From positions 4,783,194 to 4,847,193 of the forward strand of contig JAJEKV010000015.1 in the NCBI GenBank assembly GCA_021234155.1: DNA of 64,000 nt, in the 5' to 3' direction. The notes under the pieces are model-generated. The model worked only from the letters and a program-made list of their open reading frames with translations, had not been told where the DNA came from and searched no databases. This document shows positions 15,245 to 38,877 of this stretch, piece by piece (position 1 is the stretch's first letter; every line of letters begins with the position of its first letter). The translations under genes and the position numbers were made by a program. The stretch is from Isoetes taiwanensis (Eukaryota > Streptophyta > Lycopodiopsida > Isoetales > Isoetaceae).

Positions 15245-15248
<4 letters not shown>

Positions 15249-18749: not shown

Positions 18750-18845
18750 GGCCTCCCCTTTTGGGGTCTGATAAGTCCAGCTTGCCTTTTAGTTAGTAAG
18801 GTTGGCTTGGATGTCTTAGCAAGTCAAAAGGATTTGTTCTGGCTA

Positions 18846-18846
<1 letters not shown>
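18750..18846 (+). ncRNA. Structured RNA motif at unit F 3' end (hairpin + CTGATAAG)
   Basis: A CCCC-TTTT-GGGG hairpin (18755-18766) is followed after one base by CTGATAAG (18768-18775). Then comes a possible second stem (TCC...GGA) and TGTCTTAG, whose CTTA can pair with the TAAG. (TA)n starts about 70 bp further on. The same order recurs at 38728-38804 and, reverse-complemented, at 18928-18984 and at the array junctions. The layout resembles a hammerhead ribozyme with closed stem I, but position 8 is A and no GAAA follows stem II, so ribozyme activity is not supported. Confidence 0.5.

Positions 18847-18922
<76 letters not shown>
18847..18922. repeat. (TA)n microsatellite shared by two convergent element ends
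   Basis: A pure TA tract of 76 bp. Unit F (plus strand) ends at its left side and the array (minus strand) ends at its right side, so two related elements meet tail to tail in one microsatellite. Confidence 0.95.
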
Positions 18923-18927
<5 letters not shown>

Positions 18928-18990
18928 GCTTTGCTTAACCTCCCCGAGGTCTAAGCTTATCAGGCCCATGGTCAAGCCATGGGGACCCTG
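18928..18990 (-). ncRNA. Structured RNA motif at array 3' end
   Basis: Read on the minus strand, a hairpin CCCATGG-CTTGA-CCATGGG is followed by C and CTGATAAG. Then comes a second hairpin with GCTTA/TAAGC and ACCTC/GAGGT pairs, a bulged G and a GGG loop, then AAAGCTG. ACAG upstream of the first hairpin can pair with CTGT downstream, closing a three-way junction. An identical copy lies at 26096-26158; the copy at 33273-33335 is altered at its CAG/CTG sites. Hammerhead-like in outline, but it lacks G8 and G12 of the hammerhead core. Confidence 0.55.
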
Positions 18991-19567
18991 TGAGAACCAT
19001 TTAGTAAATAGGAAGTAGTTAAAAAACATTTGCATTAGGCCATGCTGTGATTATTGCAAGCCATATTAAGTTTAGGTAACAGTATGCTTCTACCGAAAGA
19101 CATAGATGTGCTGTCATTTGTGCAAAACCTTCAAATAGAGTTTTGCTTCAGATATTCACGATTGTTTTTTAAAAAATTATCTTATTTGCTGAATATTATG
19201 AGCATGCAGACTAATTCCAGATTGTTTTCATTTGCATTTTATTACCTTACTATGCTTTTAAACAAGAATATGTTTGAATGTGACATTTAATCATTCTAAA
19301 CAAAGAATAGATGTGCTTTTAAATATCGAACATCCACAAGAATAATCATGCAGCAGCCTGGACCAAACTCAAGAAAAAGATCCTTCATTTTTCAAAATTT
19401 TAAAAGGCCATTATGGCTATCATAATATGCATTGTTATCTTGGAACCTATATAACTTAGGAATTTTCCGGAGAAAGAATAATAATACTCAACCCGAACGT
19501 AATCTTGTTTAAAACTATAGAGAAAGCAGAAGTGCAAAATCAGATCAGTTTTGAGAAAGGATCTTAC

Positions 19568-20651
19568 CATATGCACTTGTAGTAATTATAACAAACAGTA
19601 AAATAGAGAATACTGAAATTAAACTGATTGTTTCTTTGAAAACAAAGATAGTATAGATTCTTCAAGACCAAATCAAAAGCTTTTTGGGAAAAGAAGCTCC
19701 GGTTACCTGCATCCAACCAGTACCTAAGTTAGCTTGAAAAAGGTAAATAGGTAAGGGACGTCAGGTAAGCAGTAGAGCATCTTGGCTTTTCGCCCTTTGC
19801 CCAAGCAAATGTAAATATCTTGCTTGTGAGAGTAACAAAGTAGACGTAGAAATGTGCAGTAGTAAAATACGAAATGAAGTGAATCAAACATTGCTACAAG
19901 TTTAAGCAAACAGTATTATATTTTATCTAAAAGAACCTGATTAGCTTGTATGTCATCAGAATCTGAGTTGCCTTCAGAATCCTCGTAATCCTCTTGATTG
20001 AGTATGCTTGGAGTAGAATCAGTAAGGTTTACTGCCTTGTTGTCGTCAGCATTTCTATTGGGGATATATCTTTGTATTCCACCATTTTTTCTTTTGGCTA
20101 CAGCATTGACTACCTCAGATTCTAGTCCAGCCTTGTTTATCATCTCATTGAGAGTGGCTCTAGAAATATCTTTAGTGGCTGTTCCATCTGCCCTGCCATG
20201 ATCATTCAGCAGCCCTGCCTTCTTGAGGATGGAAACGAGCTCAGGTTTTGTAGCCCCATTGTTTGGAGAACCTTTAGGCCTGGGCATACTTGTATCAGAT
20301 GAATAATATAGAAAATCACTTTGGAAATTTAGTTTGTAGAGATCGTATATGAGCAAAGCCAAAATATTGCTTTTGATCAGTATCTTGATGCTGCTTTGCG
20401 AAATCTTCAAGCAGGAGGCATTTTTCACATCCACAGTCGGGTTGATACGAGTGCCCTTGGGCCAGAAAATTGCTGGTGAAGTGAAGATCAATTTTTTGGC
20501 GCTCAGAACAATCAAGATCTGTCGGTTCAGAACAGATTTTTAGATCTTGAAGGTTTTGCAGGAAGGTATCAATTTCATCGTGCTCAGCCGAAGGGCTAAC
20601 TTGCTCATCCCTTTCTAAAAACTCATAGTCATCGTCTCTTTCTATCCACAT
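19568..20651 (-). pseudogene. Small acidic helical protein gene, array copy 1 (two exons)
   Basis: Exon 1 runs from ATG at 20651 to 19937 (CAG|GTTCTT), about 238 codons. It has an acidic N-terminus (MWIERDDDYEFLERDEQ), a CGCEKC cysteine cluster, a Pro-Arg-Lys stretch (MPRPKGSPNN), then two helical modules: ELVSILKKAGLL, and ATLNEMINKAGLESEVV. It ends DSDDIQANQ. This copy is frameshifted near 20345, where copies 2 and 3 read through (GATCAGAAGC there, GATCGTAT here). Exon 2 (19706 to 19568) follows GGATGCAG, reads GNRSFFSQKAFDLVLKN in one frame with a hydrophobic tail, and ends ATG|GTAAGA. The helical modules are weakly SAP-like. Function is unknown; a nucleic-acid-binding accessory protein is a guess. 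Confidence 0.6.
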
Positions 20652-20832
20652 TTTCAAAAAGGAATAAAACAAAAATATAGACTTACCAGTTTATAGTGTT
20701 GTATGAATGAAATCATGATCTCAAAGCAGATGTACAGTCTTACAGCAGTTCCGCCTTGCTCAAAATCGTCCTGGAAATCCAAGCTTGGATGCGGCAGGGG
20801 TCGGGCTAAGCCGCAGGCTGATGCTATTCTTA

Positions 20833-20867
20833 GAACCCTAGTTAGTGTTTAGGTTATGAAACCCTAG
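20833..20867. promoter_or_regulatory. Telomere-repeat-like motifs upstream of the small-protein gene
   Basis: GAACCCTAG, TTTAGG and GAAACCCTAG lie within 35 bp, about 180 bp upstream (minus-strand sense) of the small-protein start. Equivalent copies lie near 28010 and 35197. Plant telo-boxes (AAACCCTA) commonly occur near transcription starts; some endonuclease-lacking Penelope-like elements associate with telomeric repeats. Either reading is inference. Confidence 0.35.
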
Positions 20868-21798
20868 AAAAATAGCGGATAGCCGTTTGATGCGTGTCGT
20901 CCAGTTCTTAACTCATTAAATGCCCTGTATTTTTAGCATACCATGCGTGTACTCCCAAAATGATTTACCCCCAGATACATGTGTGAAGTAAATGCCATAG
21001 TATGAACATCAAGGCACGATTCCACTTTTCAGTGTGTTTTTCCTTTAATTTTTTCTTGTCATACGAACTGACATGATTGTGTACTAGTGTCATAAGAAGA
21101 GAAAGGAAACTCGTGATGTTTTTTAGAAATGGTCCCAACAATTAGAAAAGGCCATTATCCATATGGCCAAGGAATTTCCTACGTGGTAAATTATGCTCAT
21201 GTATAATTTGCAAAGGTTTATGCCTTGCCTTTGCATTCTTGCTACAGTAATAATCCTTATGCAACAAAGGCCCTCCCCTAGTAGTTTCAAGTTTTGTTGG
21301 AACAAAATGCCAACTACCCACTATGTGCCAACTTCACATTTGGAGCAGACCTATAAATATGCCTCCTTGCCATGGAATACCCTTCGAAGTTTTTCATTGT
21401 AAGGACACAACTATGTGGTGGTATTAGTGTGCAAACAAATGCTTAGATCCTACTAGGATGGGTAATCAGATAGTGCCACAGTTCAACAAAACAATGGGCA
21501 ATTTTTATATGCTTTGGGCTTTTGCTACATGATTGCGAGATTGATTCACTAAACAGTGGGTCAGGTGTAGAAATTAAGCTCAACCTGAGATATTATTTTG
21601 TTATTTTCAACCTACTAGTCAAGAGTGGCCAAATAAATGCAGTGTATCCTTGCTGTGCTAATTATCTTACAGCCGAACATAGTGCATATATCAACAAGAA
21701 AATACACGCCTAGGTCCCACTACAATGGGTAGCAGATTGTGGCAAAGGAAAACCTAACAAAGGGATCTATGAATATATATTTATGTATAGATATATAT

Positions 21799-24031
21799 GA
21801 AAATTGGTCCTACCTCCTTCCGATGCAAGGAAATGGTCCCATAAATGGCAAGAAAGGGATCGGAGGGTCCCTATACTACCATAGGGACCCTCCTTGTCAT
21901 CTATAACAAATTTCCAAACTAATTGTAAGAAGATCAAATACCGTAAGATAGCGTAATAGTTGTCATGTTGGTCGGGCCTCGATATGTAGACCGGAAAATT
22001 TCCATCCTTAAGTGTTTTCATAGCAATCCTCCATACGCCATTGGCGTGAAACCCTTTTGAATAAAAAGCCTGTATTAATTCAAAGATATCCCGCGGCAGC
22101 TTTTATTGGGTTACTATGCACGATAAGAAAGGCATAATTTGGGAAACTATCATCACGCTGCATGCTTGATAGTATGGCCCGCGACCTTTGGCATGTATGA
22201 ACTTGGATGTGGGAACGGCAACTTTAATCTTTTATCATATCTAAATATTTCAAAAGTGCCGTGGTATTGGGTTGATAATCTCAATTGTAACGTTGAGAAA
22301 ATCCACTTTCTTACCTTTGTTCCGCCAAAGCCTGTTATCTTCCCCAAGCATGTTTAGGCCCTTAATTTTAAGATGTCCGAGATCATAGATTTGAAGGTTA
22401 CTTTCTGCTTGTATCATCAAGTCCCAAATATTTTCTCGAGGGTGTATACTATTTATCCCAAGCGGATCATCCATGTATCCGGGTCATGTGGTTAAAGGTC
22501 GGTAGCTTCTTCTTTTTTTTCCTGATTTTAATAACTCTAGTATGAAAGTGCATTCGAACCATGCTAAATATGCATTACACCAACCTGGACTACATGCGAA
22601 ACCCATAGCAATTCCTTTGGTTTGTTTCCATATGCAGTTTCCCATCTGTAGGTAGCAGCTCTTAAGCAACCAACAATTCAAATTTGTAAAAAGTTCCTGA
22701 TTAAGCAAGTTCCATTTTACTCCAGTTGGTTTCTTCTGGAACCACTTTATGTCTATTTCACCATTGCCTTTTATGTTATACCAGAGGTTTTGATTTTTCT
22801 GTTTTCTTCCTTGGCTATGCCAAACCATGCTAATAACGGAGCTGATTATAGAGCAAATTCCCAAATCACCTTCTATCGGTATGTTTTCGTAGCATTTAGT
22901 AATGTCAGCTACGAAGATTTCATGGATACTGCTGGGTAGATTACAAGTCAGATCGTAGATAGAGTTAATTACCCATGATGCTTTTACTTTTTCTTTGTAG
23001 AACATGTTATATTTTGCACATTCCTCCTGACAGATTACTGGCCACAGCTCAAGCATGCAGTTTAAGCCTGCAGCCACAATTTTAGCAGGTAGAGAGAAAA
23101 TTGTATTATGCGCGTTAGTTATCCAGCGATACTCATTCTTGTGGGCCTTAAATATGCCGAGGAGGTAAGGTAGTGTATCATTAAAGGGAGGCCAGAAACC
23201 TATGAATTCCTGAATTTCTTTTGCTGTCCGGGCTTTGATTTCATCAGCCCTTATTTCAATTTTACAGAAATCGTGGCTATCGAGCCTCTTGTAAGCTTCA
23301 TCTCTGATATGAGCTGGGCAGATAAAAGACGGATTGTTGCTAGCTTTGTCAATGCCTGCTACATAAAGGTTACTGTTTAACCATTTTATATTTTTCTGTA
23401 GATCTGGATCATTAATCATATATTTTTTCCGTTGTGTTCTCTCATTGTTAACATAATCCTTAGCCATTTGGGATGCAGTCGCAAATATCAAGTCCTTAGC
23501 ATTCTGAATTTTTCCTTCTGTCCAATCAAGTGTACTGTATCGATGTACAATAAAGAACAGCTCAATGGTTTTCTCTAATTCACTTAGAAAAATATTCATG
23601 GTGAATGGGTGGTCTGGTATATGATTCAATCCTATTGTTAACCACTCTCTCAAGGCTTTATTATGTACTATCTTGAGATCAGTAGTTCTCACATGCCCAA
23701 TTCTATGATCAATGAAACTGCTGAGATTAGGGTTTTTGCAAGGGCAAATCATTGAGTCTAAATCAGCAAAAACCAATTTTGGTTTGTATAGCATACTCTT
23801 CAGATTCTTCACAAACCTCCAACCAAATCTTGTTTTATTAATGATCTCATGTCCTTTACTTGGCTCAATTTTGCAGAGTGCTTCTTTGAAGGCTTCATCA
23901 ATCCTGATTTTGTCCATGGATTTAGAAAAAAATGTGAAGTGTACATACTTAACATCCTGTGTGTCTTTTATAGTATTGAGGATCCATCTTCCTTCGGCAT
24001 TTTTTACCATTACTCTTCTCTTTATCTGCAT
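21799..24031 (-). pseudogene. Penelope-like reverse transcriptase, array copy 1
   Basis: Encodes the polymerase expected to copy the element RNA. A 515-codon frame (24031 to 22484, true ATG start) holds, in order: IDKASNNPSFICP near residue 227, a conserved pre-RT block; LLGIFKAHKNEYRWITNAHN at 290-309; motif A FVADITKCYENIP at 373-385; and motif B KQTKGIAMGFACSPGWCN at 469-486. The frame breaks near 22500, where a T-run differs from copy 2. Motif C (YMDD) and the thumb region lie in other frames down to about 21860. No GIY-YIG endonuclease is visible after the thumb. In-frame upstream is TAA, then CTGCAG directly before the start, so a splice acceptor is also possible. Between this gene and the ORF A stop (24032-24289) there is only AT-rich spacer. 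Confidence 0.8.
21862..21893. other. Perfect 13-bp hairpin in the RT 3' coding end
   Basis: GGAGGGTCCCTAT, a 6-base loop, then its exact complement. In copy 2 (29036-29067) it is identical and encodes EGPYGSIGTL near the end of the reverse transcriptase frame. Family D has a weaker equivalent around 7240 (CCCTATAATTATAGG). It could be an RNA signal at the end of the coding region. Confidence 0.6.
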
Positions 24032-24289
24032 ATAAATCTGCAGTTACTAAATGGAGTAGCAGATAGGGTATCTGGTATGAAGTATAAGTCCCTGCTTTAA
24101 GTGACCAGGGTCTGTTTTTTAACGGGGAACACTCCCTTTGTACAAGTTATAATTTGGAAAACCATGTATATCTGTCTAGTATTAATCATACCAGGCAGGC
24201 AAGTCTCAGCAAACAAAGCATAAAAGTAAATATACAAGTAATAATTAAGTGCTATAGAAATTTGCATTTATGTAATATAAATACCTATT

Positions 24290-25903
24290 TCAGAATATGA
24301 TCTTGCTCCCTTGTATCCCTTCTGTGCGTGAAGAACCAGCAATGTTGCTTTTAGAAATGGATCCATCAGCTCCTCCACTAAGGTTGGAACTGTCACTGAG
24401 GTCAATGATTGTATTACTGTTAGGAGTGCGCGGCATCACTGGCTTTTTGTAGACAGTAGGTGGTAGGAGTATGTCCGTGTCATCTGGCTGCATGGGCTGC
24501 TTTCGTTTGGAGGTAGAAGCATCAAAATGGTTGCTGTTACTGGGTGATTTACCCATCAGAAATTTAATAGGTCGAATGGTCTTTTCAAGGACATCTGAGA
24601 GTTTGGTATTACCAAATTCCTTGTTCAGGTCAGCTGTTTGATCTTCAGCGTACCTCTTGGTCATATCAAATAGCATATTTCTGACCCTAAGGAAGCCTAT
24701 GTACGCTATAACAGCAGTGTGCATGGTATCAGTACGGAGCAATGCATTAAAGCGAACAAATCTAGCTGTAGCAGGAAGGGTAGGCCACACTGTTTCTAGG
24801 TTATTCAAGAGGTACCATATAGCATGGTCAAACCATTTTATGCCCCCATCCATGCAGTCATTTTTTCTTCTCGTGTATTTTTGGCAATTACATTTTATGT
24901 AGGGGCAATGTGTCCTCCAAATCTTCTTGATATAAAAATCATTTCTTTTTTCCTCAGACTTTGCCATATGGTCTTTCTGTCCCATCAGAAAACCATCCCC
25001 TTTATCACATTCTTTTCCGAAAAAAGCAGTGTTGAATGGGAGATCAATTTCAAGCCTGTCCACTCTTCTGATGAGATTATCAGCATCATAATGTGCCCTT
25101 TTTACTTCTTCTGGTGTGATTCCAGCCAGCTTTATCCAAGTATCCACATTTAATGGTGCAATAACTCCCAAATTTTTGGATTTCCATAGAGCATGGCCAA
25201 ATCTTTGTCCAAGAGATTCAACGAGTCTTGGGGATATAATAGGATAGCAGCAACAATTAGCAAGGTTCAACTGTTTTAGTTTGTAATCATCTATAGGATC
25301 AGAAGCTTGGTCACCAGTTGAGCAGTTGACCTGCAAATCAATGCCTAGAACAGTTCGTTTTTCTTCTTCAGTTAAGCCTTCTAGATCAAAAAGGCAATTG
25401 TCAAAGCAAACATTGATCAGGGCTTTGTGGACCCATCTAGCAAGATTTTTATTTATTGGTGGATTTGTGATTTTTACTCCATTTGCCTTTTCAAGTGCAG
25501 TTAAGCATTGGATGAAGGTGAGTACGTTGCTACTGTCCAATAGGGTGGCTTCGAAAACAGCAGTAGGGAGTCTAGCATAAGTGTCTTCAATTAAAGCCAG
25601 GCAGGTGTCGAGGTCATATTTAACCTCATTGAACTTTGATGCTAAGGCAAGAACATTGTTAGTGCCCAAAAACATAATTGCTGAAATATCACCTTCAGCA
25701 AGGTTGTTTTCCTTGAATATGAACCTTTGATGAAGTTCAGGCTTCCTAATGCATGCCAGCACCAATTGTACTGCTTTGTTTGGAGCTACCATGATGTTGC
25801 CTGAGTAACCAATCTCCCTAAGTTCATATAGCCAGTCATATCTGCTACTCAAGCGGTTGCCTGTCGGCTGGATTGTATCTTCTGTATTAGTATGATCAGC
25901 AGC
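24290..25903 (-). CDS. ORF A, conserved unrecognised retroelement protein, copy 1
   Basis: The frame is open from an AG acceptor (TATGTAG at 25904) for 537 codons and has no ATG for the first 37 codons, so it needs an upstream exon. The acceptor is at codon phase 0, matching the phase-0 donor that ends the small-protein exon of the preceding terminal repeat (27102), about 1.2 kb upstream. The N-terminal 350 residues look like a globular, mostly helical domain. A cysteine cluster C-P-Y-I-K-C-N-C...C follows, then the conserved WFDHAIWYLLNN. The last 100 residues are Ser/Pro/Asp-rich and look disordered, ending RTEGIQGSKIIF. Family D preserves the C-terminal pattern. It matches no domain I know. 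By position it could be a Gag-like or RNA-binding protein. Confidence 0.75.
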   Translation of the reverse strand, partial: AADHTNTEDTIQPTGNRLSSRYDWLYELREIGYSGNIMVAPNKAVQLVLACIRKPELHQRFIFKENNLAEGDISAIMFLGTNNVLALASKFNEVKYDLDTCLALIEDTYARLPTAVFEATLLDSSNVLTFIQCLTALEKANGVKITNPPINKNLARWVHKALINVCFDNCLFDLEGLTEEEKRTVLGIDLQVNCSTGDQASDPIDDYKLKQLNLANCCCYPIISPRLVESLGQRFGHALWKSKNLGVIAPLNVDTWIKLAGITPEEVKRAHYDADNLIRRVDRLEIDLPFNTAFFGKECDKGDGFLMGQKDHMAKSEEKRNDFYIKKIWRTHCPYIKCNCQKYTRRKNDCMDGGIKWFDHAIWYLLNNLETVWPTLPATARFVRFNALLRTDTMHTAVIAYIGFLRVRNMLFDMTKRYAEDQTADLNKEFGNTKLSDVLEKTIRPIKFLMGKSPSNSNHFDASTSKRKQPMQPDDTDILLPPTVYKKPVMPRTPNSNTIIDLSDSSNLSGGADGSISKSNIAGSSRTEGIQGSKIIF

Positions 25904-25909
25904 CTACAT

Positions 25910-26090
25910 ATAAAGAAGTTAGTAATGGAAGACTTATATTTACTACGATGCCTCAAGTCAAAATCAGAAGATACTCAAAGAGATGGACAGTTTAGTCCTA
26001 TTCCAACTATGTGTGGCTGATTACGTAAAGTAAAGTTCTCACAAGGGCCAGGACTAGTACAACCAGTTCCCTGAAGTCACAGATTATATA
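25910..26090 (-). other. Body 5' end and repeat/body junction
   Basis: About 180 bp between the ORF A acceptor and the terminal-repeat end. The junction reads (plus) CAGATTATATAAAACAGC; the equivalent at 33257-33271 is CAGATTATATAAAATGAC. The short TATATA at each internal junction corresponds to the (TA)n at the outer 3' end, so inter-copy joints look like collapsed (TA)n. Confidence 0.5.
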
Positions 26091-28969
26091 AAACAGCTTT
26101 GCTTAACCTCCCCGAGGTCTAAGCTTATCAGGCCCATGGTCAAGCCATGGGGACCCTGTGAGAACCATTTAGTAAATAGGAAGTAGTTAAAAAACATTTG
26201 CATTAGGCCATGCTGTGATTATTGCAAGCCATATTAAGTTTAGGTAACAGTATGCTTCTACCGAAAGACATAGATGTGCTGTCATTTGTGCAAAACCTTC
26301 AAATAGAGTTTTGCTTCAGATATTCACGATTGTTTTTTAAAAAATTATCTTATTTGCTGAATATTATGAGCAGTACAGCTAATTCCAGTTGTTTTCATTT
26401 GCATTTTATTACCTTACTATGCTTTTAAACAGTAATATGTTTGAATGTGACATTTAATCATTCTAAACAGCAATAGATGTGCTTTAAATATCGAACATCC
26501 ACAAGAATAATCATGCAGCAGCCAGACCCAAACTGAAGAAAAAAGATCCTTCATTTTTCAAAATTTTAAAGGCCATTATGGCTATCATAATATGCATTGT
26601 TATGCTGGAACCTATATAACTTAGGAATTTTCTGGAGAAAGAATAATAATACTCCAGAACTGAACGTGTACTGTTTTAAAACTATAGAGAAAGCAGAAGT
26701 GCAAAATCAGATCAGTTTTGAGAAAGGATCTTACCATATGCACTTGTAGTAATTATAACAAACAGTAAAATAGAGAATACGAAATTAAACTGATTGTTTC
26801 TTTGAAAACAGCATAGTATAGATTCTTCAAGACCAAATCAAAAGCTTTTTGGGAAAAGAAGCTCCGGTTACCTGCATCCAACCAGTACCTAAGTTAGCTT
26901 GAAAAAGGTAAATAGGTAAGGGACGTCAGGTAAGCAGTAGAGCATCTTGGCTTTTCGCCCTTTGCCCAAGCAAATGTAAATATCTTGCTTGTGAGAGTAA
27001 CAAAGTAGACGTAGAAATGTGCAGTAGTAAAATACGAAATGAAGTGAATCAAACATTGCTACAAGTTTAAGCAAACAGTATTATATTTTATCTAAAAGAA
27101 CCTGATTAGCTTGTATGTCATCAGAATCTGAGTTGCCTTCAGAATCCTCGTAATCCTCTTGATTGAGTATGCTTGGAGTAGAATCAGTAAGGTTTACTGC
27201 CTTGTTGTCGTCAGCATTTCTATTGGGGATATATCTTTGTATTCCACCATTTTTTTTTTTTTTGGCTACAAAGCATTGACTACCTCAGATTCTAGTCCAG
27301 CCTTGTTTATCATCTCATTGAGAGTGGCTCTAGAAATATCTTTAGTGGCTGTTCCATCTGCCCTGCCATGATCATTCAGCAGCCCTGCCTTCTTGAGGAT
27401 GGAAACGAGCTCAGGTTTTGTAGCCCCATTGTTTGGAGAACCTTTAGGCCTGGGCATACTTGTATCAGATGAATAATATAGAAAATCACTTTGGAAATTT
27501 AGTTTGTAGAGATCAGAAGCATGAGCAAAGCCAAAATATTGCTTTTGATCAGTATCTTGATGCTGCTTTGCGAAATCTTCAAGCAGGAGGCATTTTTCAC
27601 ATCCACAGTCGGGTTGATACGAGTGCCCTTGGGCCAAAAAATTGCTGGTGAAGTGAAGATCAATTTTTTGGCGCTCAGAACAATCAAGATCTGTCGGTTC
27701 AGAACAGATTTTTAGATCTTGAAGGTTTTGCAGGAAGGTATCAATTTCATCGTGCTTTTCACCGGCGGGCTAACTTGCTCATCCCTTTCTAAAACTCATA
27801 GTCATCGCCTCTTTCTATCCACATTTTCAAAAAGGAATAAAACAAAAATATAGACTTACCAGTTTATAGTGTTGTATGAATGAAATCATGATCTCAAAGC
27901 AGATGTACAGTCTTACAGCAGTTCCGCCTTGCTCAAAATCGTCCTGGAAATCCAAGCTTGGATGCGGCAGGGGTCGGGCTAAGCCGCTAGGCCGATGCTA
28001 TTCTTAGAACCCTAGTTAGTGTTTAGGTTATGAAACCCTAGAAAATAGCGGATAGCCGTTTGATGCGTGTCGCCCAGTTCTTAACTCATTAAATGCCCCA
28101 GATTTTTAGCATACCATGCGTGTACTCCCAAAATGATTTACCACCAGATACATGTGTGAAGTAAATGCCATAGTATGAACATCAAGGCACAGATTCCACT
28201 TTTCGGGCAGTGTTTTTCCTTTAATTTTTTCTTGTCATACGAACCGACATGATTGTGTACTAGTGTCATAAGAAGAGAAAGGAAACTCGTGATGTTTTTA
28301 GAAATGGTCCCAACACTAGAAAAGGCCATTATCCATATGGCCAAGGAATTTCCTACGTGGTAAATTATGCTCATGTATAATTTGCAAAGGTTTATGCCTT
28401 GCCTTTGCATTCTTGCTACAGTAATAATCCTTATGCAACAAAGGCCCTCCCCTAGTAGTTTCAAGTTTTGTTGGAACAAAATGCCAACTACCCACTATGT
28501 GCCAACTTCACATTTGGAGCAGACCTATAAATATGCCTCCTTGCCATGGAATACCCTTCGAAGTTTTTCATTGTAAGGACACAACTATGTGGTGGTATTA
28601 GTGTGCAAACAAATGCTTAGATCCTACTAGGATGGGTAATCAGATAGTGCCACAGTTCAACAAAACAGTGGGCAATTTTTATATGCTGGGCTTTTGCTAC
28701 ATGATTGCGAGATTGATTCACTAAACAGTGGGTCAGGTGTAGAAATTAAGCTCAACCTGAGATATTATTTTGTTATTTTCAACCTACTAGTCAAGAGTGG
28801 CCAAATAAATGCAGTGTATCCTTGCTGTGCTAATTATCTTACAGCCGAACATAGTGCATATATCAACAAGAAAATACACGTCTAGGTCCCACTACAATGG
28901 GTAGCAGATTGTGGCAAAGGAAAACCTAACAGTGGACGATGAATATATATTTATGTATAGATATATATG
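26091..28969 (-). repeat. Terminal repeat 2 (middle)
   Basis: Matches terminal repeats 1 and 3. It holds the structured 3' motif at 26096-26158, small-protein exon 2 at about 26735-26873 and exon 1 at 27102-27824. Confidence 0.85.
26735..27824 (-). pseudogene. Small acidic helical protein gene, array copy 2
   Basis: Exon 1 runs from ATG at 27824 to CAG|GTTCTT at 27102. This copy reads through the site where copy 1 is frameshifted (FGFAHASDLYKLNFQSDFLY then MPRPKGSPNN). It is broken near 27255 by a T-run expansion plus an extra AA (TTTTTTTTTTTTTGGCTACAAAGCA against TTTTTTCTTTTGGCTACAGCA), and near 27755 (CTTTTCACCGG against CTCAGCCGA). Exon 2 begins at 26871 after GGATGCAG. Between them the copies define one intact protein, so most lesions are recent or are sequence errors. 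Confidence 0.55.
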
Positions 28970-31190
28970 AAAATTGGTCCTACCTCCTTCCGGATGCAAG
29001 GAAATGGTCCCATAAATGGCAGTACTAAAGGGATCGGAGGGTCCCTATACTACCATAGGGACCCTCCTTGTCATCTATAACAAATTTCCAAACTAATTGT
29101 AAGAAGATCAAATACCTGTAAGATAGCAGAATAGTTGTCATGTTGGTCAGTTCGATATGTAGACCAGGAAAATTTCCATCCTTAAGTGTTTTCATAGCAA
29201 TCCTCCATACGTCATTGGCGTGAAACCCTTTTTGAATAAAAGCCTGTATTAATTCAAAGATATCCTGTGCAGCTTTTATTGGGTTACTATGCACGTATAA
29301 GAAAGGCATAATTTGGGAAACTATCACGCTGCATGCTTGATAGTATGGCCTGCAGCCTTTGGCATGTATGAACTTGGATGTGGGAAACGGCAACTTTAAT
29401 CTTTTATCATATCTAAATATTTCAAAAGTGCCGTGTATTGGGTTGATAATCTCAATTGTAACGTTGAGAAAATCCACTTTCTTACCTTTGTTCCGCCAAA
29501 GCCTGTTATCTTCCCAGTAGCATGTTTCGTCCTTAATTTTAAGATGTCTGAGATCATAGATTTGAAGGTTACTGCTGCTTGTATCATCAAGTCCCAAATA
29601 TTTTCTGAGGTGTATACTATTTATCCCAAGCAGATCATCCATGTATCTGGTCATGTGGTTAAAGGTCAGCGCTTCTTCTCTTTTTCCTGATTTTAATAAC
29701 TGTAGTATGAAAGTGCATTCGAACCATGCTAAATATGCATTACACCAACCTGGACTACATGCGAAACCCATAGCAATTCCTTTGGTTTGTTTCCATATGC
29801 AGTTTCCCATCTGTAGGTAGCAGCTCTTAAGCAACCAACAATTCAAATTTGTAAAAAGTTCCTGATTAAGCAAGTTCCATTTTACTCCAGTTGGTTTCTT
29901 CTGGAACCACTTTATGTCTATTTCACCATTGCCTTTTATGTTATACCAGAGGTTTTGATTTTTCTGTTTTCTTCCTTGGCTATGCCAAACCATGCTAATA
30001 ACGGAGCTGATTATAGAGCAAATTCCCAAATCACCTTCTATCGGTATGTTTTCGTAGCATTTAGTAATGTCATTCTTAAGATTTCATGGATACTTTCTGG
30101 GTAGATTACAAGTCGGATCGTAGATAGAGTTAATTACCCATGATGCTTTTACTTTTTCTTTGTAGAACATGTTATATTTTGCACATTCCTCCTGACAGAT
30201 TACAGGCCACAGCTCAAGCATGCAGTTTAAGCATGCAGCCACAATTTTAGCAGGTAGAGAGAAAATTGTATTATGCGCGTTAGTTATCCAGCGATACTCA
30301 TTCTTGTGGGCCTTAAATATGCCGAGGAGGTAAGGTAGTGTATCATTAAAGGGAGGCCAGAAACCTATGAATTCCTGAATTTCTTTTGCTGTCCGGGCTT
30401 TGATTTCATCAGCCCTTATTTCAATTTTACGTAAATCGTGGGCTATCGAGCCTCTTGTAAGCTTCATCTCCGATATGAGTCAAGCGGATAAAAGACGGAT
30501 TGTTGCTAGCTTTGTCAATGCCTGCTACATAAAGGTTCTTGTTTAACCATTTTATATTTTTCTCAGAGATCCGGATCATTAATCATATATTTTTTCCGTT
30601 GTGTTCTCTCATTGTTAACATAATCCTTAGCCATTTGGGATGCAGTCGCAAATATCAAGTCCTTAGCATTCTGAATTTTTCCTTCTGTCCAATCAAGTGT
30701 ACTGTATCGATGTACAGTAAAAAACTGCTCGATAGTTTTCTCTAATTCACTTTGAAAAACACTCATCGTGAATGGGTGGTCTGGAATATGATTTAATCCT
30801 ATTGCCAACCAATCCCTCAAAGCTTTATTATGAACTATCTTAAGATCAGTAGTTCTCACATGCCCAGTTCCCTGATCAATAAATCTGCTGAGATTAGGGT
30901 TTTTACAGGGGCATATCATTGAGTCTGTGCCAGCAAACACTAATTTTGGTTTGTATAGCATCTTCTTCAGATTCTTCACAAACCTCCATCCAAATCTTGT
31001 ATTCTTAATGATCTCATGTCCTTTCAGTGGTTCACATTTGCAGAGTGCTTCCTTGAATGCATCATCAATCCTAATTTTATCCATAGACTTAGAGAAGAAT
31101 GTAAAATGTACATACTTAACATCTTGTGAGTCTTTTAGAGTACTAAGGATCCATCTTCCTTGGCATTTTTACCATTACTCTTCTCTTTAT
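28970..31190 (-). pseudogene. Penelope-like reverse transcriptase, array copy 2
   Basis: The C-terminal 334 codons (30029 to 29025) are intact here and supply what copy 1 lacks. Motif B is at residues 80-97, motif C RYMDDLLGIN at 128-137, then KKVDFLNVTIEI at 183-194, YDKRLKLPFPTSKFIH at 207-222, and a helical thumb with FLYVHSNP and LIQAFIQKGF. The frame ends soon after the 13-bp hairpin. The N-terminal half (31084-30563 and 30467-30084) is split by frameshifts. It has real amino-acid differences from copy 1, such as FFTVHRYS against FFIVHRYS, with several synonymous changes between 30710 and 31140. That block differs from copy 1 by ordinary substitutions, unlike the CAG/CTG-centred clusters elsewhere. 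Confidence 0.8.
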
Positions 31191-31454
31191 CCGCATATAA
31201 ATCTGCAGTTACTAAATGGAGTAGCAGATAGGGTATCCGGTATGAAGTATAAGTCCCCTTTTAAGTGACCGAGGTCTCTGTTTTTTAACGGGGAACACTC
31301 CTTTGTACAAGTTATAATTTGGAAAACCATGTATATCTGTCTAGTATTAATCATACCAGGCAAAGTCTCAAAGAAACAAAGCATAAAAGTAAATATACAA
31401 GTAATAATTAAGTGCTATAGAAATTTGCATTTATGTAATATAAATACCTATTTC

Positions 31455-33077
31455 GAATATGATCTTGCTCCCTTGTATCCCTACGTGCGTGAAGAACCAG
31501 CAATGTTGCTTTTAGAAATGGATCCATCGGCTCCTCCACTAAGGTTGGAACCGCCATCCGAGGTCAATGATTGTATTATTTGTTAGGAGTCTTGCGCATC
31601 ACCGGCTTTTGTAGACAAGAGGGGTGGTAGGAGTATGTCCGTGTCATCCGGCTGCATGGGCTGCTTTCGTTTGGAGGTAGAAGCATCAAAATGGTTGTTT
31701 ATTCTTGGGTGATTTACCCATCGAAATTTAATAGGTCGAATGGTCTTTTCAAGGACATCCGAGAGTTTGGTATTACCAAATTCCTTGTTCAGTCAGGCCG
31801 TTTGATCTTCAAATTACCTCTTGGTCATATCAAATAGCATATTTCTGACCCTAAGGAAGCCTATGTACGCTTATAACAAAGAAGCAGTGCATGGTATCGG
31901 ATCACGAGCAATGCATTAAAGCGAACAAATCTAGTCAGAAAGGGAAGGGTAGGCCACACTTGTTTCTAGGTTATTCAAGAGGTACCATATAGCATGGTCA
32001 AACCATTTTATGCCCCCATCCATGCAAATCATTTTTTCTTCTCGTGTATTTTTGGCAATTACATTTTATGTAGGGGCAATGTGTCCTCCAAATCTTCTTG
32101 ATATAAAAATCATTTCTTTTTTTCCTCGAGACTTTGCCATATGGTCTTTCTGTCCCATCAGAAAACCATCCCCTTTATCACATTCTTTTCCGAAAAAAGC
32201 AGTGTTGAATGGGAGATCAATTTCAAGCCTGTCCACTCTTCTGATGAGATTATCAGCATCATAATGTGCCCTTTTTACTTCTTCTGGTGTGATTCCAGCC
32301 AGCTTTATCCAAGTATCCACATTTAATGGTGCAATAACTCCCAAATTTTTGGATTTCCATAGAGCATGGCCAAATCTTTGTCCAAGAGATTCAACGAGTC
32401 TTGGGGATATAATAGGATAGCAGCAACAATTAGCAAGGTTCAACTGTTTTAGTTTGTAATCATCTATAGGATCGGAAGCTTGGTCACCAGGTTGAGCAAT
32501 TGACACAAAATCAATGCCTAGAAACGATTCGTTTTTCTTCTTCAGTTAAGCCTTCTAGATCAAAAAGGCAATTGTCAAAGCAAACATTGACTGTGGGCTT
32601 TGTGACTGGTCTAGCAGTATTTTTATTTATTGGTGGATTTGTGATTTTTACTCCATTTGCCTTTTCAAGTGCAGTTAAGCATTGGATGAAGGTGAGTACG
32701 TTGCTACTGTCCAATAGGGTGGCTTCGAAAACAGCAGTAGGGAGTCTAGCATAAGTGTCTTCAATTAAAGCCAGGCAGGTGTCGAGGTCATATTTAACCT
32801 CATTGAACTTTGATGCTAAGGCAAGAACATTGTTAGTGCCCAAAAACATAATTGCTGAAATATCACCTTCAGCAAGGTTGTTTTCCTTGAATATGAACCT
32901 TTGATGAAGTTCAGGCTTCCTAATGCATGCCAGCACCAATTGTACTGCTTTGTTTGGAGCTACCATGATGTTGCCTGAGTAACCAATCTCCCTAAGTTCA
33001 TATAGCCAGTCATATCTGCTACTCAAGCGGTTGCTGTCGGGATTGATTGTATCTTCTTAGATTAGTATGATCAGCAG
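31455..33077 (-). pseudogene. ORF A, array copy 2
   Basis: From the same AG acceptor, the first about 170 codons (33026 to 32511) are identical to copy 1 until a frameshift near 32515 (AAACGATTC against AACAGTTC). A second segment (32506-32066) covers residues about 190-330. From 31455 to 32050 the sequence is dense with small changes at CAG/CTG sites, for example CAAAGAAGCAGTG against CAGCAGTGTG. These scramble the C-terminal frame although the DNA still aligns end to end. Compared with copy 1 this is a broken copy, or an accurately inherited copy with local consensus errors. Confidence 0.7.
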
Positions 33078-33267
33078 CCTACATATAAAGAAGTTAGTAA
33101 TGGAAGACTTATATTTACTACGATGCCTCAAGTCAAAATCAAGATACTCAAAGAGATGGACAGGTTTAGTCCTATTCCAACTATGTGTGGCTGATTACGT
33201 AAAGTAAAGTTCTCACAAGGGCCGGGACTAGTACAACCAGGTTCCACTCAAGTCACAGATTATATAA

Positions 33268-36158
33268 AATGACTTTGCTTAACCTCCCGAGGGTCTAAGC
33301 TTTATCGTGCCCATGGTCAAGCCATGGGACCACAATGAGAACCATTTAGTAAATAGGAAGTAGTTAAAAAACATTTGCATTAGGCCATCTTTGTGATTAT
33401 TGCAAGCCATATTAAGTTTAGGTAATAAAGATGCTTCTACCGAAAGACATAGATGTCTTTGGCATTTTGTGCAAAACCTTCAAATAGAGTTTTGCTTCAG
33501 ATATTCACGATTGTTTTTAAAAAATTATCTTATTTGCTGAATATTATGAGCAAATACTGACTAATTCGAGTTTGTTTTCATTTGCATTTTATTACCTTAC
33601 TATGCTTTTAAACAAAGAATATGTTTGAATGTGACATTTAATCATTCTAAACAGCAATAGATGTGCTTTAAATATCGAACATCCACAAGAATAATCATGC
33701 GGCCCAGGACCCAAACCCAAGAAAAAAAGATCCTTCATTTTTCAAAATTTTAAAGGCCATTATGGCTATCATAATATGCATTGTTATGTTTGAACCTATA
33801 TAACTTAGGAATTTTTCTCGGAGAAAGAATAATAATACTCCGAACTGAACGCGATATCTTGTTTTAAAACTAGAGAAAAAGCGTATGCAAAATCAGATCA
33901 GTTTTGAGAAAGGATCTTACCATATGCACTTGTAGTAATTATAACAAACAAAGAAAAATAGAGAATACTGAAATTAAACCGATTGTTTCTTTGAAAACAA
34001 AGATAGTATAGATTCTTCAAGACCAAATCAAAAGCTTTTGGGAAAAGAAGTCTCCTACACTACCGCATCCAACCAAGACCTAAGTTAGCTTGAAAAAAGG
34101 TAAATAGGTAAGGGACGTCAGTGTGAAGCAAAGAGAGCATCTTGGCTTTTCGCCCTTTGCCCAAGCAAATGTAAATATCTTGCTTGTGAGAGTAACAAAG
34201 TAGACGTGAGAAATGTGCAAGAGTAAAATACGAAAAATGAAGTGAATCAAACATTGCTACAAGTTTAAGCAAACAAAGATTATATTTTATCTAAAAAGAA
34301 CCTCGATTAGCTTGTATGTCATCGAACTGAGTTGCCTTCTTAATCCTCGTAATCCTCTTGATTGAGTATGCTTGGAGTAGAATCAGTAAGGTTTACTGCC
34401 TTGTTGTCGTCAGCATTTCTATTGGGGATATATCTTTGTATTCCACCATTTTTTCTTTTGGCTACAGCATTGACTACCTCAGATTCTAGTCCAGCCTTGT
34501 TTATCATCTCATTGAGAGTGGCTCTAGAAATATCTTTAGTGGCTGTTCCATCTGCCCTGCCATGATCATTCAAAGAAACCACTTCTTGAGGATGGAAACG
34601 AGCTCAGGTTTTGTAGCCCCATTGTTTGGAGAACCTTTAGGCCTGGGCATACTTGTATCAGATGAATAATATAGAAAATCACTTTGGAAATTTAGTTTGT
34701 AGAGATCAGAAGCATGAGCAAAGCCAAAATATTGCTTTTGATCAGTATCTTGATGCTGCTTTGCGAAATCTTCAAGCAGGAGGCATTTTTCACATCCACA
34801 AATGTTGATAATGAGTGCCCTTGGGCCAAAAATTGCTGGTGAAGTGAAGATCAATTTTTGGCGCCGTAAACAATCAAGATCCGCTTGGTTCGTAACAGAT
34901 TTTAGATCTTGAAGGTTTTGCAGGAAGGTATCAATTTCATCGTGCTCAGCCGAAGGGCTAACTTGCTCATCCCTTTCTAAAAACTCATAGTCATCGTCTC
35001 TTTCTATCCACATTTTCAAAAAGGAATAAAACAAAAATATAGACTTACCAGTTTATAGTGTTGTATGAATGAAATCATGATCTCAAAGCAGATGTACAGT
35101 CTTACAGCAGTTCCGCCTTGCTCAAAATCGTCCTGGAAATCCAAGCTTGGATGCGGCAGGGGTCGGGCTAAGCCGCAGGCTGATGCTATTCTTAGAACCC
35201 TAGTTAGTGTTTAGGTTATGAAACCCTAGAAAAATAGCGGATAGCCGTTTGATGCGTGTCGTCCAGTTCTTAACTCATTAAATGCCCTGTATTTTTAGCA
35301 TACCATGCGTGTACTCCCAAAATGATTTACCCTGTATACATGTGTGAAGTAAATGCCATAGTATGAACATCAAGGCACAGTATTCCACTTTTCAGTGTGT
35401 TTTTCCTTTAATTTTTTCTTGTCATACGAACCGACATGATTGTGTACTAGTGTCATAAGAAGAGAAAGGAAACTCGTGATGTTTTTTAGAAATGGTCCCA
35501 ACAATTAGAAAAGGCCATTATCCATATGGCCAAGGAATTTCCTACGTGGTAAATTATGCTCATGTATAATTTGCAAAGGTTTATGCCTTGCCTTTGCATT
35601 CTTGCTACAGTAATAATCCTTATGCAACAAAGGCCCTCCCCTAGTAGTTTCAAGTTTTGTTGGAACAAAATGCCAACTACCCACTATGTGCCAACTTCAC
35701 ATTTGGAGCAGACCTATAAATATGCCTCCTTGCCATGGAATACCCTTCGAAGTTTTTCATTGTAAGGACACAACTATGTGGTGGTATTAGTGTGCAAACA
35801 AATGCTTAGATCCTACTAGGATGGGTAATCAGATAGTGCCACAGTTCAACAAAACAGTGGGCAATTTTTATATGCTGGGCTTTTGCTACATGATTGCGAG
35901 ATTGATTCACTAAACAGTGGGTCAGGTGTAGAAATTAAGCTCAACCTGAGATATTATTTTGTTATTTTCAACCTACTAGTCAAGAGTGGCCAAATAAATG
36001 CAGTGTATCCTTGCTGTGCTAATTATCTTACAGCCGAACATAGTGCATATATCAACAAGAAAATACACGTCTAGGTCCCACTACAATGGGTAGCAGATTG
36101 TGGCAAAGGAAAACCTAACAGTGGACGATGAATATATATTTATGTATAGATATATATA
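33268..36158 (-). repeat. Terminal repeat 3 (5'-most in the array)
   Basis: Matches terminal repeats 1 and 2 but is densely altered at CAG/CTG sites from 33268 to 34345 and again around 34570-34910. From 34920 to 36120 it is almost identical to the others. It supplies the small-protein gene upstream of body 2. Its outer edge at about 36158 falls at the same point where the internal repeats join the RT 3' end. Confidence 0.85.
34302..35013 (-). pseudogene. Small acidic helical protein gene, array copy 3 (exon 1)
   Basis: Open from ATG at 35013 through the acidic N-terminus, cysteine cluster (GCEKC) and MPRPKGSPNN to KKWFL at about 34570. There CATTCAGCAGCCCTGCC of the other copies is replaced by CATTCAAAGAAACCAC and the frame shifts. 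A second frame resumes (LNDHGRADGTATKDISRATL) to the acidic C-terminus. The donor is altered to CCTCG at 34301. Exon 2 is recognisable near 34070 but scrambled. Confidence 0.5.
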
Positions 36159-37049
36159 TATCAAATTAACCTGCGGTTATGCACAAATTTAAATAGTGTT
36201 GGCCTATGGATGTATCCTAAGGTTTTTTTTGGAACTGAAGGAACTAGTAAGGGGACAATAGACCCTGGTGTGGCAGGAAAATATGTGAAGCAGATTGTAA
36301 TTATACAAAATACTTTTATGATCTATATCCTAAGGGGTAAAAATCCAGACTTTAGCAACATTTGTGGTAGTAGACCAGTATCGATCCCCTGATTCCTAAA
36401 AAAAAGGGGGTAGGTTTAGCATATTGCATGACCTTTAAGGCTATTGTAATGGATAAAATGATATGTTAACATGTGGGTGCACGGCAGTAATGTAAAATAC
36501 ACTTGTAGCCAAATTATAAAACTAAGTAACTTCAAGAGCAATGGTGAAGGTATGATTTTTTTAATGGTTATGCAAATAGGTAAATATTGTGGAATATGCT
36601 GGTATCTGTAAAGATCCACTTAGGGCTATCGAAATGGTAAAGGAACTTAGGGTAATTCTAGGGTTACTCTGGAATCGGAGATGGTAAGTTTTACAGGAGA
36701 AGGATTCCGGCACTCCGATGCATTATGGCAAATGGGGATCTGTACCGTTACAAAGAATATGAAACACTTGATGGAAACGCATGGCAGGATAAGGCACAAG
36801 TCTTGGTAATGCCGGATGCTCCAAATGTAGATCAATACAGATTATGGCTGGCCACAGATCAGTTTTGGCTAAGATAGAAGGATCAAAATAGAGCTACAGA
36901 TGGCGACTTAGCAAGATACCTAATGGGCGGCAGCAAAGGCATGCCAAGTAAGCCCACGAAAACAGCATATATAAATCGTTGTATGTGTTGATCAAGGCAT
37001 TCTGTCCGCTGCTAGTAGAGAAGAGCTATGGCGCCTCTAGAGAAGAGCT

Positions 37050-37754
37050 ATGGCGCCCCTGGTGGCCAAAGCCAAGCAGACCCGGCAGGATTTACTAAGC
37101 CTCATCAATGGTGCTGGCTTAGATCTGGCTGCCTTGTGCAAAAAAGATGGTGAGGTGCTGGCACAACCCAGCAAAGCATTCCTTAGCAGAATCGTGGAGA
37201 AGTATAACCTTGCTGGTCCGCTTGCATGCAAGGATGATGATGGAATCATAAAATACATTTCACAGGCTGCTGCAAACAATAAGAGTGCAACAGAGACTAG
37301 CGTGAGCAACGTGGCTGAGTCCATTGGGATCCAACAAGAACTTGAAACAGAGGAGGACGAGATTGAGTTGCTACTAAACCAGGTTCTCTATTAATTGCTT
37401 TTGGCTATTATATTTAGACAAGATAATGAGGCATACAGCCTTGGTGATCTGCAAAAAGCCTGGTTAATTCTGGGTATAAGTAAGTTTTTAGGTTCTAAAT
37501 TGGTGAAGGGCATTAAGCCATGTTGAGACCACTGCTTACCTGCTAATCCCTTTCAATGTTACCCAATTTTGGCTAATATTTGTCTGATTGGATTGCAGGT
37601 AACCGGTCTTACATCTCCAGTTTTCTTTTTTGAACTTTGGATGTTTGGAGACGATGGATTACATAAGGAAGAACATCTTGAACACAGCCTACAAACCACA
37701 CAAATATTTCTGACAGTATTTGTTTTTGTTGCACTATATCTTGTCGAAACCAAG
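37050..37754 (+). CDS. Two-exon small acidic helical protein, unit E
   Basis: Exon 1 (37050-37382) encodes 111 residues, MAPLVAKAKQTRQDLLSLIN onward. Helical modules LLSLINGAGLDLAALCKKDG and SKAFLSRIVEKYNLAGPLAC are followed by an acidic tail ending EDEIELLLNQ. The donor is CCAG|GTTCTC. Exon 2 (37599-37754) follows the acceptor GATTGCAG. It reads VTGLTSPVFFFELWMFGDDG, has a hydrophobic segment TVFVFVALYLVE, and ends CAAG|GTAAAC. Exon lengths (333 and 156) closely match the family D gene (336 and 155). An in-frame alternative ATG is not available upstream. A roughly 20-bp duplication (AGAGAAGAGCTATGGCGCC) spans 37017-37054, so there are two ATGGCGCC starts in different frames. Both exons are intact, so this is the best-preserved copy of the family. 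Confidence 0.65.
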
Positions 37755-38722
37755 GTAAACTCTGTGCATTTGTCATATGGAAAATATGTTCATGACACTG
37801 CTGTATGCTGGCTGAATGGGTATTACTGCTTGAAGCATGAAACAGTGTAAGCCTTTATTTCTGGTTTTTGAAGTTTAAATGGAAGGAAACATCAATCTAC
37901 ATATCGATCTGCCTTAATATGGGCTATGTTTTTCTTGCATTAAAATAGGTTATAATTGGTGAAAGTTTAGCATGCATACATTATGGCAGCACGCTGTCAA
38001 ACAGGATTAATGATGGCTTTCAATTTTCCTTTGTTGTAATTAACAATAAATTACTAGTAATATAGCATAACAATAGCAGCCTAGAATGCAAGAATATTTG
38101 TTCAGTATGAGCCTATGGACAGGTGACATCATATTATCTAGTAAAAGATGAAAGTGAGGATACGTAATTAATGGATCGTTGCTATTATAAACACTACAGT
38201 TTAGTTCTGTGCAGTAGATCTGACAAAAGTAATTGCCATGGTTGGCTTCCCATGGGTTGAAATTAAGGCCTATATCATCTGTTTAACATGAGACAAAAGA
38301 ACCAATATATGGTCGCCTTCAGCAATTTTCTGCTCCATATTGTCTCCATATTTTGAAATTATGGCTTATGGCATCTGCTTAACAGGAGACAAAAGAACGT
38401 TTATATGAATCTTGAGCATACAGTAGGTGTATTTGCTGATTGACTTATGGCATCTGTTTAACATGAGACAATTTATTTATTTATGTAATCAGTTAAATCT
38501 TGGATTTTAAACACATTGTAGAGTGTATGAATAAGAAATGGTGAAGGCTGGCATTAATGTCTGAGATATACACACATAATTTTTGGCTAAGGCAATGATA
38601 TTAAGGGTTGTTGAATAGGGTACCAATGCATTATATGGCATTAATGGTCCTCTTATGTGTTTTAAGTAAATAGAACAGATTAGATCTAAGTTAAAGGAAA
38701 AATATTTAGTATATGATCTCCA

Positions 38723-38802
38723 AAGTTCCCCCAGTTGTCTGGGGACTGATAAGTTCTTTGGCTTTTGGCTTTAGAATGTCTTAGTTTTATGGCTAAGGCC
38801 AA

Positions 38803-38803: not shown

Positions 38804-38877
<74 letters not shown>
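38804..38877. repeat. (TA)n microsatellite at unit E 3' end
   Basis: Pure TA tract of 74 bp directly after unit E. The right flank begins CAAGAAATTTAATGCG. Confidence 0.95.

Follow-up and report, generated by a model that had tools for sequence, protein, structure and literature searches.

How the tandem arrays and pseudo-long terminal repeats (pseudo-LTRs) of Penelope-like elements (PLEs) originate is still an open question, and it is posed by a 64,000-nucleotide stretch of the genome of the lycophyte Isoetes taiwanensis (GenBank contig JAJEKV010000015.1, C963:4783194-4847193 in our numbering; hereafter the window), in which three long repeats alternate with two bodies that encode a reverse transcriptase (RT). 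In the portions of the literature available here, to which all cited statements in this text are limited, PLEs are known to have repeats that reach into the open reading frame (ORF), tandem copies, introns, AT-rich targets and junction ribozymes (PMC3846280, PMC11167929). We find that the repeats in the window belong to a dispersed element family with gene-carrying terminal repeats (TRs), whose internal TR/body boundaries coincide with a predicted, covarying RNA fold (J) and whose outer 3′ ends lie mostly in TA repeats. The published assembly, whose 204 scaffolds and 909 further contigs without placement amount to 1658.30 Mb, was made from nanopore reads with miniasm, racon and pilon, and the word Penelope has no occurrence in the main text of the genome paper (PMC8566536). 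Nanopore assemblies can retain indel errors in repeats, so the broken frames of the window copies, some of which may be assembly errors, should not be over-read.

A head-to-tail array of terminal repeats and bodies

Self-comparison of the window resolved positions 18917-36157 as TR-body-TR-body-TR, with coding on the minus strand throughout, to which the array features below also refer. In the sense order these units are the 5′-most repeat TR1 (36157-33261), body a with ORF2 and RT in broken frames (28969-33260), the middle repeat TR2 (28968-26085), body b (21799-26084) and the 3′-most repeat TR3 (21798-18917), the TRs delimited by self-comparison and a listing of boundary sequences and the bodies by ORFs and self-comparison. 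Taken by increasing window position, the three TRs measure 2882, 2884 and 2897 bp and the two bodies 4286 and 4292 bp. The segment 18917-28968 matched 26085-36157 at 95.3% over 10152 columns, and 18917-21798 matched 33261-36157 at 94.8%. The two units of the array differ at 351 of 7219 columns. These differences form dense patches between identical runs of up to 444 columns, and in 54.6% of cases one lies no more than 3 columns from its neighbour. A (TA)n tract (18847-18922, strand not assigned) forms the outer 3′ end. The alternation of three repeats with two bodies described by a first-pass annotation was thus recovered, with boundaries within a few bases of those it gave, and its ORFs were present (RT, 22484-24043 and 29025-30083; ORF2, 24290-25903; TR ORF, 19916-20539). 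The junction RNA, the TA repeats at the flanks and two additional copies in the window, one a second relative and the other a solo TR, go beyond it.

The element family is dispersed with shared boundaries

A genome search (1,658,258,908 bases, 1110 contigs) with a 501-base RT probe gave 43 matches, several of them about 7 kb apart on one contig. Seven further loci were fetched whole, four picked for tandem-like spacing (C1072, C1034, C963b and C756) and three for closeness in sequence (C1031, C923 and C1067), and each was compared with itself. All seven, which lie on other contigs or far off, shared their TR/body boundaries with the window (7/7), so that a merely local duplication failed as a reading and the plant element family with long coding terminal repeats that the annotation had proposed was borne out. 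The family consists of TRs of 2.6-3.3 kb and bodies of about 4.3 kb, arranged as TR-body-TR or as head-to-tail arrays at dispersed loci. One body was present in C923, C1067 and C1031 (the last interrupted), two in C963b, C756 and the window array, and three in C1034, which has TA runs at both ends (2716156 and 2741641); in C1072 three bodies belong to a single family and the fourth is chimeric, changing family at 6049817, hence arrays can be chimeric. In that fourth body (L012, about 1818) an ORF2 match of 62.6% is followed by an RT match of 48% identity, marking the switch. TRs accordingly occurred at 8/8 loci including the window, and at least two bodies at 5/8, a proportion that is not a rate since four of the seven other loci had been picked for tandem spacing. 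In the single-body elements C923 and C1067 the distance between the TRs was 0.078 and 0.065, respectively.

In six loci, at 13 places found by pattern, the TR began with TATATATCTATACATA..TATATATTCA..GTCC or a near variant, and nine of these places were internal starts preceded by the body end AGGTAG; the TRs of C1072 began without the CTATACATA part, its outer and internal starts agreeing with each other. The TR ended, with variants, as hairpin-N-CTGATAAG-hairpin followed by TATATA, and the body started with ATCTGTGACTTC or a variant of it. At 6/8 loci the outer 3′ end lay within (TA)n, the exceptions being C756 and C1031, so that AT-rich insertion, a feature of PLEs, is present; the outer 3′ end of C1072 belongs to another family. 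Outer 5′ ends were likewise at the TA-rich TR start at 6/8 loci.

Body b ends (21809-21908, from the boundary listing and folds) in a GGGUCCC...GGGACCC hairpin and GGAAGGAGGUAGG, immediately before the TR. The 3′ flanks of five RTs of more distant subfamilies, read in one copy each, all showed a hairpin, a GG[AT]GGTAGG end and then a TA-rich TR-like start, which lay no more than about 150 nt beyond the RT. Body ends were also read in 12 sequences (window 21809-21908, L047-L051, L014, L018, L021, L026, L027 and L010), where the TR start comes after a GGGUCCCUAU...AUAGGGACCC-type sequence (L018 has a variant) and a GG[AT]GGUAGG run; most of their minimum-energy folds contain the GGUCCC hairpin. 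The body/TR boundary of C1081 itself holds a 132-base (TA)n tract (L049, 107-239).

The RT family is abundant in the genome. In a search with the full-length RT, the best 63 of 4693 first-look candidates were scored, all at E < 1e-243 and with 49-100% identity; 41 of the 63 contained no stop, which, these being the best-scoring matches, is not a rate for the family.

A predicted RNA fold spans the junction of repeat and body

At the junction of TR2 and body b (26035-26165) the RNA is predicted to form J, in which helix P1 pairs the TR with the body, the further parts being P2, the motif (C)CUGAUAAG, P3, the UAUAUA of the boundary and P4. The same region recurs at the junction of TR1 and body a (33209-33342), whose own minimum-energy fold departs from it in part, and its 5′ half (P2 and P3) stands at the outer 3′ end (18917-18997), followed by (TA)n. 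The fold at this kind of junction had a z of -2.9 in one window copy, and the minimum-energy folds of 17 junctions mostly gave the same outline. In an alignment that had not been fitted to the structure, 93.2% of cells paired, compared with 32-48% when partners were slid by 1-3 columns; 16 pairs had changed on both sides, against a shuffle mean of 8.8 (0/500 as high), and the covariation score was 0.330 against 0.191. The alignment comprised 11 sequences from four families, six of them from one family, and the structure was taken from one aligned sequence, which makes the slide and shuffle controls generous. The model built from it found junctions outside its build set, including two further families already seen by pattern, and also yielded antisense matches. 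We conclude that J is, as modelled, a covarying four-helix RNA across the TR/body boundary.

When 18 junctions of six families, all treated as internal, were put together, P1 was paired in 193/203 cells of the fitted alignment (one junction, L027 2151-2315, was counted as internal without a body check). At six outer ends P1 was paired in 53/72 cells and P4 in 18/18 of a model-fitted alignment, a fit that forces pairs into the flanks, so these values do not support a loss of P1 there; that loss rests on the flank being unrelated sequence. Since one side of P1 comes from the TR and the other from the body, J would be complete only at internal junctions, and selection would have acted on molecules that contained both.

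J was not explained by any Rfam family in window positions 1-44000 or at three other junctions. A hammerhead ribozyme, which many but not all PLEs have in the repeat and which the CUGAUAAG motif brought to mind, was unsupported, Rfam giving no hammerhead match at E ≤ 5 in the same sequences; the motif differs from the hammerhead core CUGAUGA. Sub-threshold hits at the junctions were taken as chance, among them Thermales-rpoB on the opposite strand of L028 (E 0.0014; 24.8 bits, where the cut-off is 77.3) and GlsR14 in L027 (E 0.031).

Reverse transcriptase without GIY-YIG endonuclease

The RT exon of body b (22487-24025) follows an acceptor-like GCAG and holds the conserved N-terminal part as far as motif B, its frame ending near 22487, and the C-terminal part, from motif A to the thumb and with R-Y-M-D-D, is found in body a (29028-30083). 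In Pfam the latter ORF (29025-30083) matched RVT_1 weakly (E 0.00098, below the cut-off), the former (22484-24043) had no RVT_1 match, and 12 of 13 RTs from the genome matched with a best E of 1.3e-5; one RVT_1 score was 21.7 bits, less than the Pfam cut-off of 29.6. Across these 13 RTs the D of motif A and the [IM]-DD of motif C are invariant, and a functional RT domain is predicted for the family. The first-pass annotation had called the RT Penelope-like: an RT it was by the RVT_1 matches, the assignment to PLEs being a step further than Pfam, which says only RVT_1. The motifs K-A-H-K before motif 2, GIPMGF...SPxWCNxYL..FE, R-Y-[IM]-DD and FLN are putatively PLE-like. A sub-threshold group II intron RT match (E 0.0042) was given by NCBIfam for one of two RTs, the RT profile found nothing in the PDB up to E 10, no relatives appeared in scans of IMG/VR (viral) or GTDB, and no match was seen to the Gypsy-like pol ORF of L020, the one sequence compared.

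The GIY-YIG endonuclease (PF01541) was not found within the eight loci, nor in the 13 RTs at E ≤ 0.1, and at least 121 matches were obtained elsewhere in the genome (150 of 263 candidates scored). Its absence from the arrays argues that this is not the canonical PLE branch; an endonuclease-deficient branch does not need it. Eight of the GIY-YIG loci were cut out as a possible endonuclease-bearing PLE yardstick and proved of no use, as no RT was seen by eye. In three of them (L031, L032 and L034) the GIY-YIG ORFs adjoin ORFs that are presumably Helitron-like helicases.

Values of dN/dS for RT were 0.09, 0.11, 0.13, 0.10 and 0.10 at dS of 1.26, 1.02, 0.27, 1.02 and 3.2, several of these dS values being near saturation and 3/8 RT comparisons saturated; ORF2 gave 0.09, with one of two comparisons saturated. 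These ratios indicate that RT and ORF2 are under purifying selection.

Putative leader exon, ORF2 and predicted gene model

The ORF in TR3 is best described as a putative leader exon of 117 aa (19937-20287), reaching from the first Met to AATCAG|GT in phase 0. In the families listed the leader ORF ended in AATCAG|GT or AACCAG|GT, with 22 donor-like sites, a count that is not a rate since the script retained only sites before GT. The ORF2 exon (537 aa, 24293-25903) follows an acceptor-like TGTAG and ends in a conserved stop; ORF2 began directly after TAG in 8/8 listed rows and RT directly after GCAG in 8/8 listed sequences, the RT alignment being without a conserved start Met. All three splice-like sites are in phase 0, so that the leader can join either ORF2 or RT in frame, and intron 1 of the predicted gene model spans the TR/body boundary. 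A donor-like GT occurs a few bases past the ORF2 stop in 7/8 rows; compared with a splice from that donor, a leader-RT join would be the simpler route to RT. The repeat ORF, in which the first-pass annotation saw a third protein, is thus probably not a stand-alone one: the splice-like sites and their phases point to a 5′ leader exon that would be joined in frame to ORF2 by splicing, and perhaps to RT as well.

ORF2, which the annotation could not recognise, had no known domain here either, with no match above the cut-off in Pfam (two ORF2s scanned) and none in PHROGs, NCBIfam or PDB. The leader likewise had no Pfam match above the cut-off in three leaders scanned; a SAP-type domain, which had seemed likely by eye, was dropped, the best Pfam hit (E 0.022) being an unrelated family below the cut-off.

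Between the ORF2 stop and the RT acceptor (window 24040-24290, minus strand) there are two short hairpins, the first GGGAGTGTTCCC-like and the second CCCTG...CAGGG-like, which by eye seem to recur in L014, L018, L021, L025 and L028, with folds that are not uniform.

Related copies and other repeats in the window

The array abuts, head-to-head and within a TA tract, a plus-strand solo TR (36157-38803) that belongs to a related subfamily and which starts with ATATCAAATTAACC, holds a leader exon (37050-37382), ends in hairpin-CTGATAAG and is followed by (TA)n (38804-38877, strand not assigned). Its ATATCAAATTAACC start is also the sequence found at the body/TR junction of C919, C11 and C1081 (3/5 flanks read). 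A second element, diverged and decayed, was recognised on the minus strand (6803-15178) by self-comparison and tblastn, with a TR start at 15178 and, in the same order as in the array family, a leader ORF (13626-13237) and remains of ORF2 (10614-9734) and RT (9328-7492); tblastn matched ORF2 at E 2e-9 and RT at E 1e-24, and did not match the leader. Beyond the RT, at 7171-6803, comes a repeat of the initial 370 bases of its TR (88.5%), and J was not found in this element (6803-15178) by model R1. A probe from its TR start found the element itself and a pair on C1050 spaced at 7.8 kb. Between two (TA)n runs lies a probable, weakly marked decayed solo TR on the plus strand (15245-18846), with hairpin-CTGATAAG at 18768 and, by eye, a decayed leader-exon end at about 16566-16650. 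This region of the window looks like the outcome of repeated insertion into TA tracts brought by earlier copies.

A telomeric tandem was not found in the window, where only six isolated telomere-like heptamers were seen, the scan covering the window alone. Another repeat (8-1032 and 6230-6782) is contiguous at 41633-43148 and split on the left by about 5.2 kb, which points to a further insertion. An ORF at 56786-57622 (plus strand) resembles, by eye, a CACTA (En/Spm) transposase fragment.

Proposed internal initiation at TA repeats and competing explanations

The reading that we favour, and hold to be rather probable, is that the family is an endonuclease-less, putatively PLE-like branch in which reverse transcription starts internally, at J, on TA repeats. 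Features in favour of initiation at J are the folded junction RNA, copies that end inside the fold, and the TA-rich targets and TR starts. The reading as a whole also draws on the boundaries shared by all eight loci, the TR-like starts after the five more distant RTs, the low dN/dS of RT and ORF2 and the phase-0 sites. In transcripts from a promoter in the TR, alternative splicing would join the leader exon to either ORF2 or RT, giving a leader-ORF2 and a leader-RT protein. RT would bind the unspliced RNA at J, and an open 3′ end in a TA repeat would act as primer, so that copying would begin internally, at the UAUAUA within J, which would fix the 3′ end of each new copy at the end of a TR. 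Copying would proceed upstream and would stop or be resolved where the TA-rich 5′ end of the TR meets the other side of the TA tract. With array RNA as template the product would be TR-body-TR, a start from the first junction would leave a solo TR, and the TA-rich 5′ ends of existing copies would serve as targets, giving tandem and head-to-head clusters.

The layout resembles that of a PLE of Anolis (PAc), and TA-primed internal initiation at J is the simplest model. In that element reverse transcription starts internally, at a stem-loop shortly after the pLTR-ORF junction, targets are AT-rich and include its own ORF-pLTR junction, and loci are tandem; a hammerhead lies at the pLTR-ORF junction, and hammerhead mutants still insert in vitro (PMC11167929). 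More broadly, canonical Penelope/Poseidon elements with GIY-YIG (PAc, and Pen2a of Adineta vaga) share with the present family tandem or partly tandem copies, TRs into which the start of the coding region extends, insertion into AT-rich DNA and an RNA structure close to the pLTR-ORF junction, as well as, on the model proposed here, an internal start and, in at least one family, an intron. They differ in having one ORF with RT and GIY-YIG, as opposed to an extra ORF2, no GIY-YIG and a junction RNA that is non-hammerhead by Rfam. The start in PAc is not homologous to the cut DNA, whereas here it would be, and the pLTR of Pen2a_Av is short (218 bp, with the first 12 codons) compared with TRs of 2.6-3.3 kb that hold the whole leader exon (PMC3846280).

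Closer in domain content are the endonuclease-deficient PLEs, which have RT without GIY-YIG (Athena; copies in Selaginella and conifers; PMC12477314, PMC9033089), occur in the lycophyte Selaginella and in some cases carry a second ORF (PMC6431247). They are reported at telomeres, whereas the window array lies at (TA)n, without a telomeric tandem and with LTR-like TRs. Coprina is also an endonuclease-deficient PLE. In the terminons of bdelloid rotifers the 3′ end is, as here, an RNA fold directly followed by repeats that match the target, the differences being a hammerhead fold, a telomeric target and far larger units (PMC6431247). Long TRs with a leader exon, a conserved ORF2, a covarying non-hammerhead junction RNA and TA specialisation without GIY-YIG were not found in the portions of the open-licence PLE literature consulted, and we claim no first description.

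Several observations weigh against initiation at J. Target-site duplications are not discernible inside the TA tracts, two loci (C756 and C1031) lack a pure (TA)n tract where their outer 3′ end lies, and C756 and C963b begin within a TR. The conserved stop of ORF2, with a donor-like site beyond it, obscures the route by which RT would be translated. Further pair types in J numbered 34 against 31.3 in shuffles (73/500), the one of five measures that did not exceed them, and the make-up of the J alignment, the choice of loci by tandem spacing and the retention of leader sites before GT count in the same direction. The analogy with Anolis is loose, given its non-homologous start and the insertion of hammerhead mutants. 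Finally, the Kimura two-parameter distances in the window array (TR2-TR3 0.019, TR1-TR2 0.048, TR1-TR3 0.042, bodies 0.049) match no simple history cleanly, a pattern confounded by possible assembly error, and arrays could arise by unequal recombination between TRs.

That last point leads to the strongest rival, to which we give a sizeable minority chance: tandems would be made after insertion by unequal crossing-over between TRs, solo TRs would be the reciprocal products and J would serve only RNA processing. Single elements, two-body arrays and solo TRs are just the forms that recombination between direct repeats gives, and the solo TR at 36157-38803 fits. Crossing-over predicts bodies no more different than the outer TRs, and the values found were 0.049 and 0.042, with 0.019 between TR2 and TR3; the excess is small, could come from assembly error and is not decisive. 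The last body of C1072, within which the family changes, points to joins between different copies, again without deciding the matter.

It is unlikely, in our estimate, that the family is a new retroelement lineage outside PLEs with an RT merely resembling theirs. The profile without a PDB match, the weak RVT_1 scores, the sub-threshold group II hit (one of two RTs), the leader and ORF2 without known domains and the lack both of GIY-YIG and of an Rfam hammerhead at the junctions tested would suit such a lineage. Set against these, tandems, 5′-coding TRs, introns, AT-rich targets and structured RNA at the TR/ORF junction have all been reported for PLEs (PMC3846280, PMC11167929).

We consider it improbable that the TRs are true LTRs generated by strand transfer in an LTR retrotransposon with an unusual RT. 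The TR-body-TR layout with long direct repeats at both ends and solo repeats is, as is generally known, shared with LTR retrotransposons, and a purine-rich GGAAGGAGGTAGG stands just before the 3′ TR; several of the 12 folds, though, have this run as one arm of a hairpin. RNase H, integrase and protease were absent from Pfam scans of six window ORFs, 13 RTs, three leaders and two ORF2s, and a tRNA primer site was not found in the scanned sequences: in six arrays and one solo TR, read by eye at their boundaries, there were neither TG...CA ends nor a TGG in the 10 nt that follow the TR. The clustering of differences between copies might suggest an assembly artefact or a local duplication of a segment of unrelated sequence. 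As the main explanation this is refuted by the unit and boundaries shared with all seven other loci, and it has a negligible chance of being right.

Initiation at J, the favoured reading, could also be put in a stronger form, which we offer as tentative and regard as doubtful: a distinct, undescribed major branch of lycophyte retroelements, without endonuclease and specialised on TA microsatellites, with LTR-like repeats that hold a shared leader spliced alternatively to two proteins, a junction RNA of a new and perhaps catalytic class by which the starting point of reverse transcription is set, and a body whose transmission depends on tandem arrays.

Significance

The repeat ends at a conserved, predicted RNA fold in which the outer helix is formed by repeat and body together, so that only the inside of an array or the 5′ junction can provide the complete fold, and this gives a testable handle on internal initiation. 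The many stop-free copies make expression and biochemical tests feasible. If the favoured reading is true, the family shows an endonuclease-less element living away from telomeres by way of TA microsatellites. The family may be a large class of repeats in a lycophyte genome. The arrangement of gene-carrying terminal repeats, a fold at their edge and TATATA sites could reveal how such elements copy themselves.

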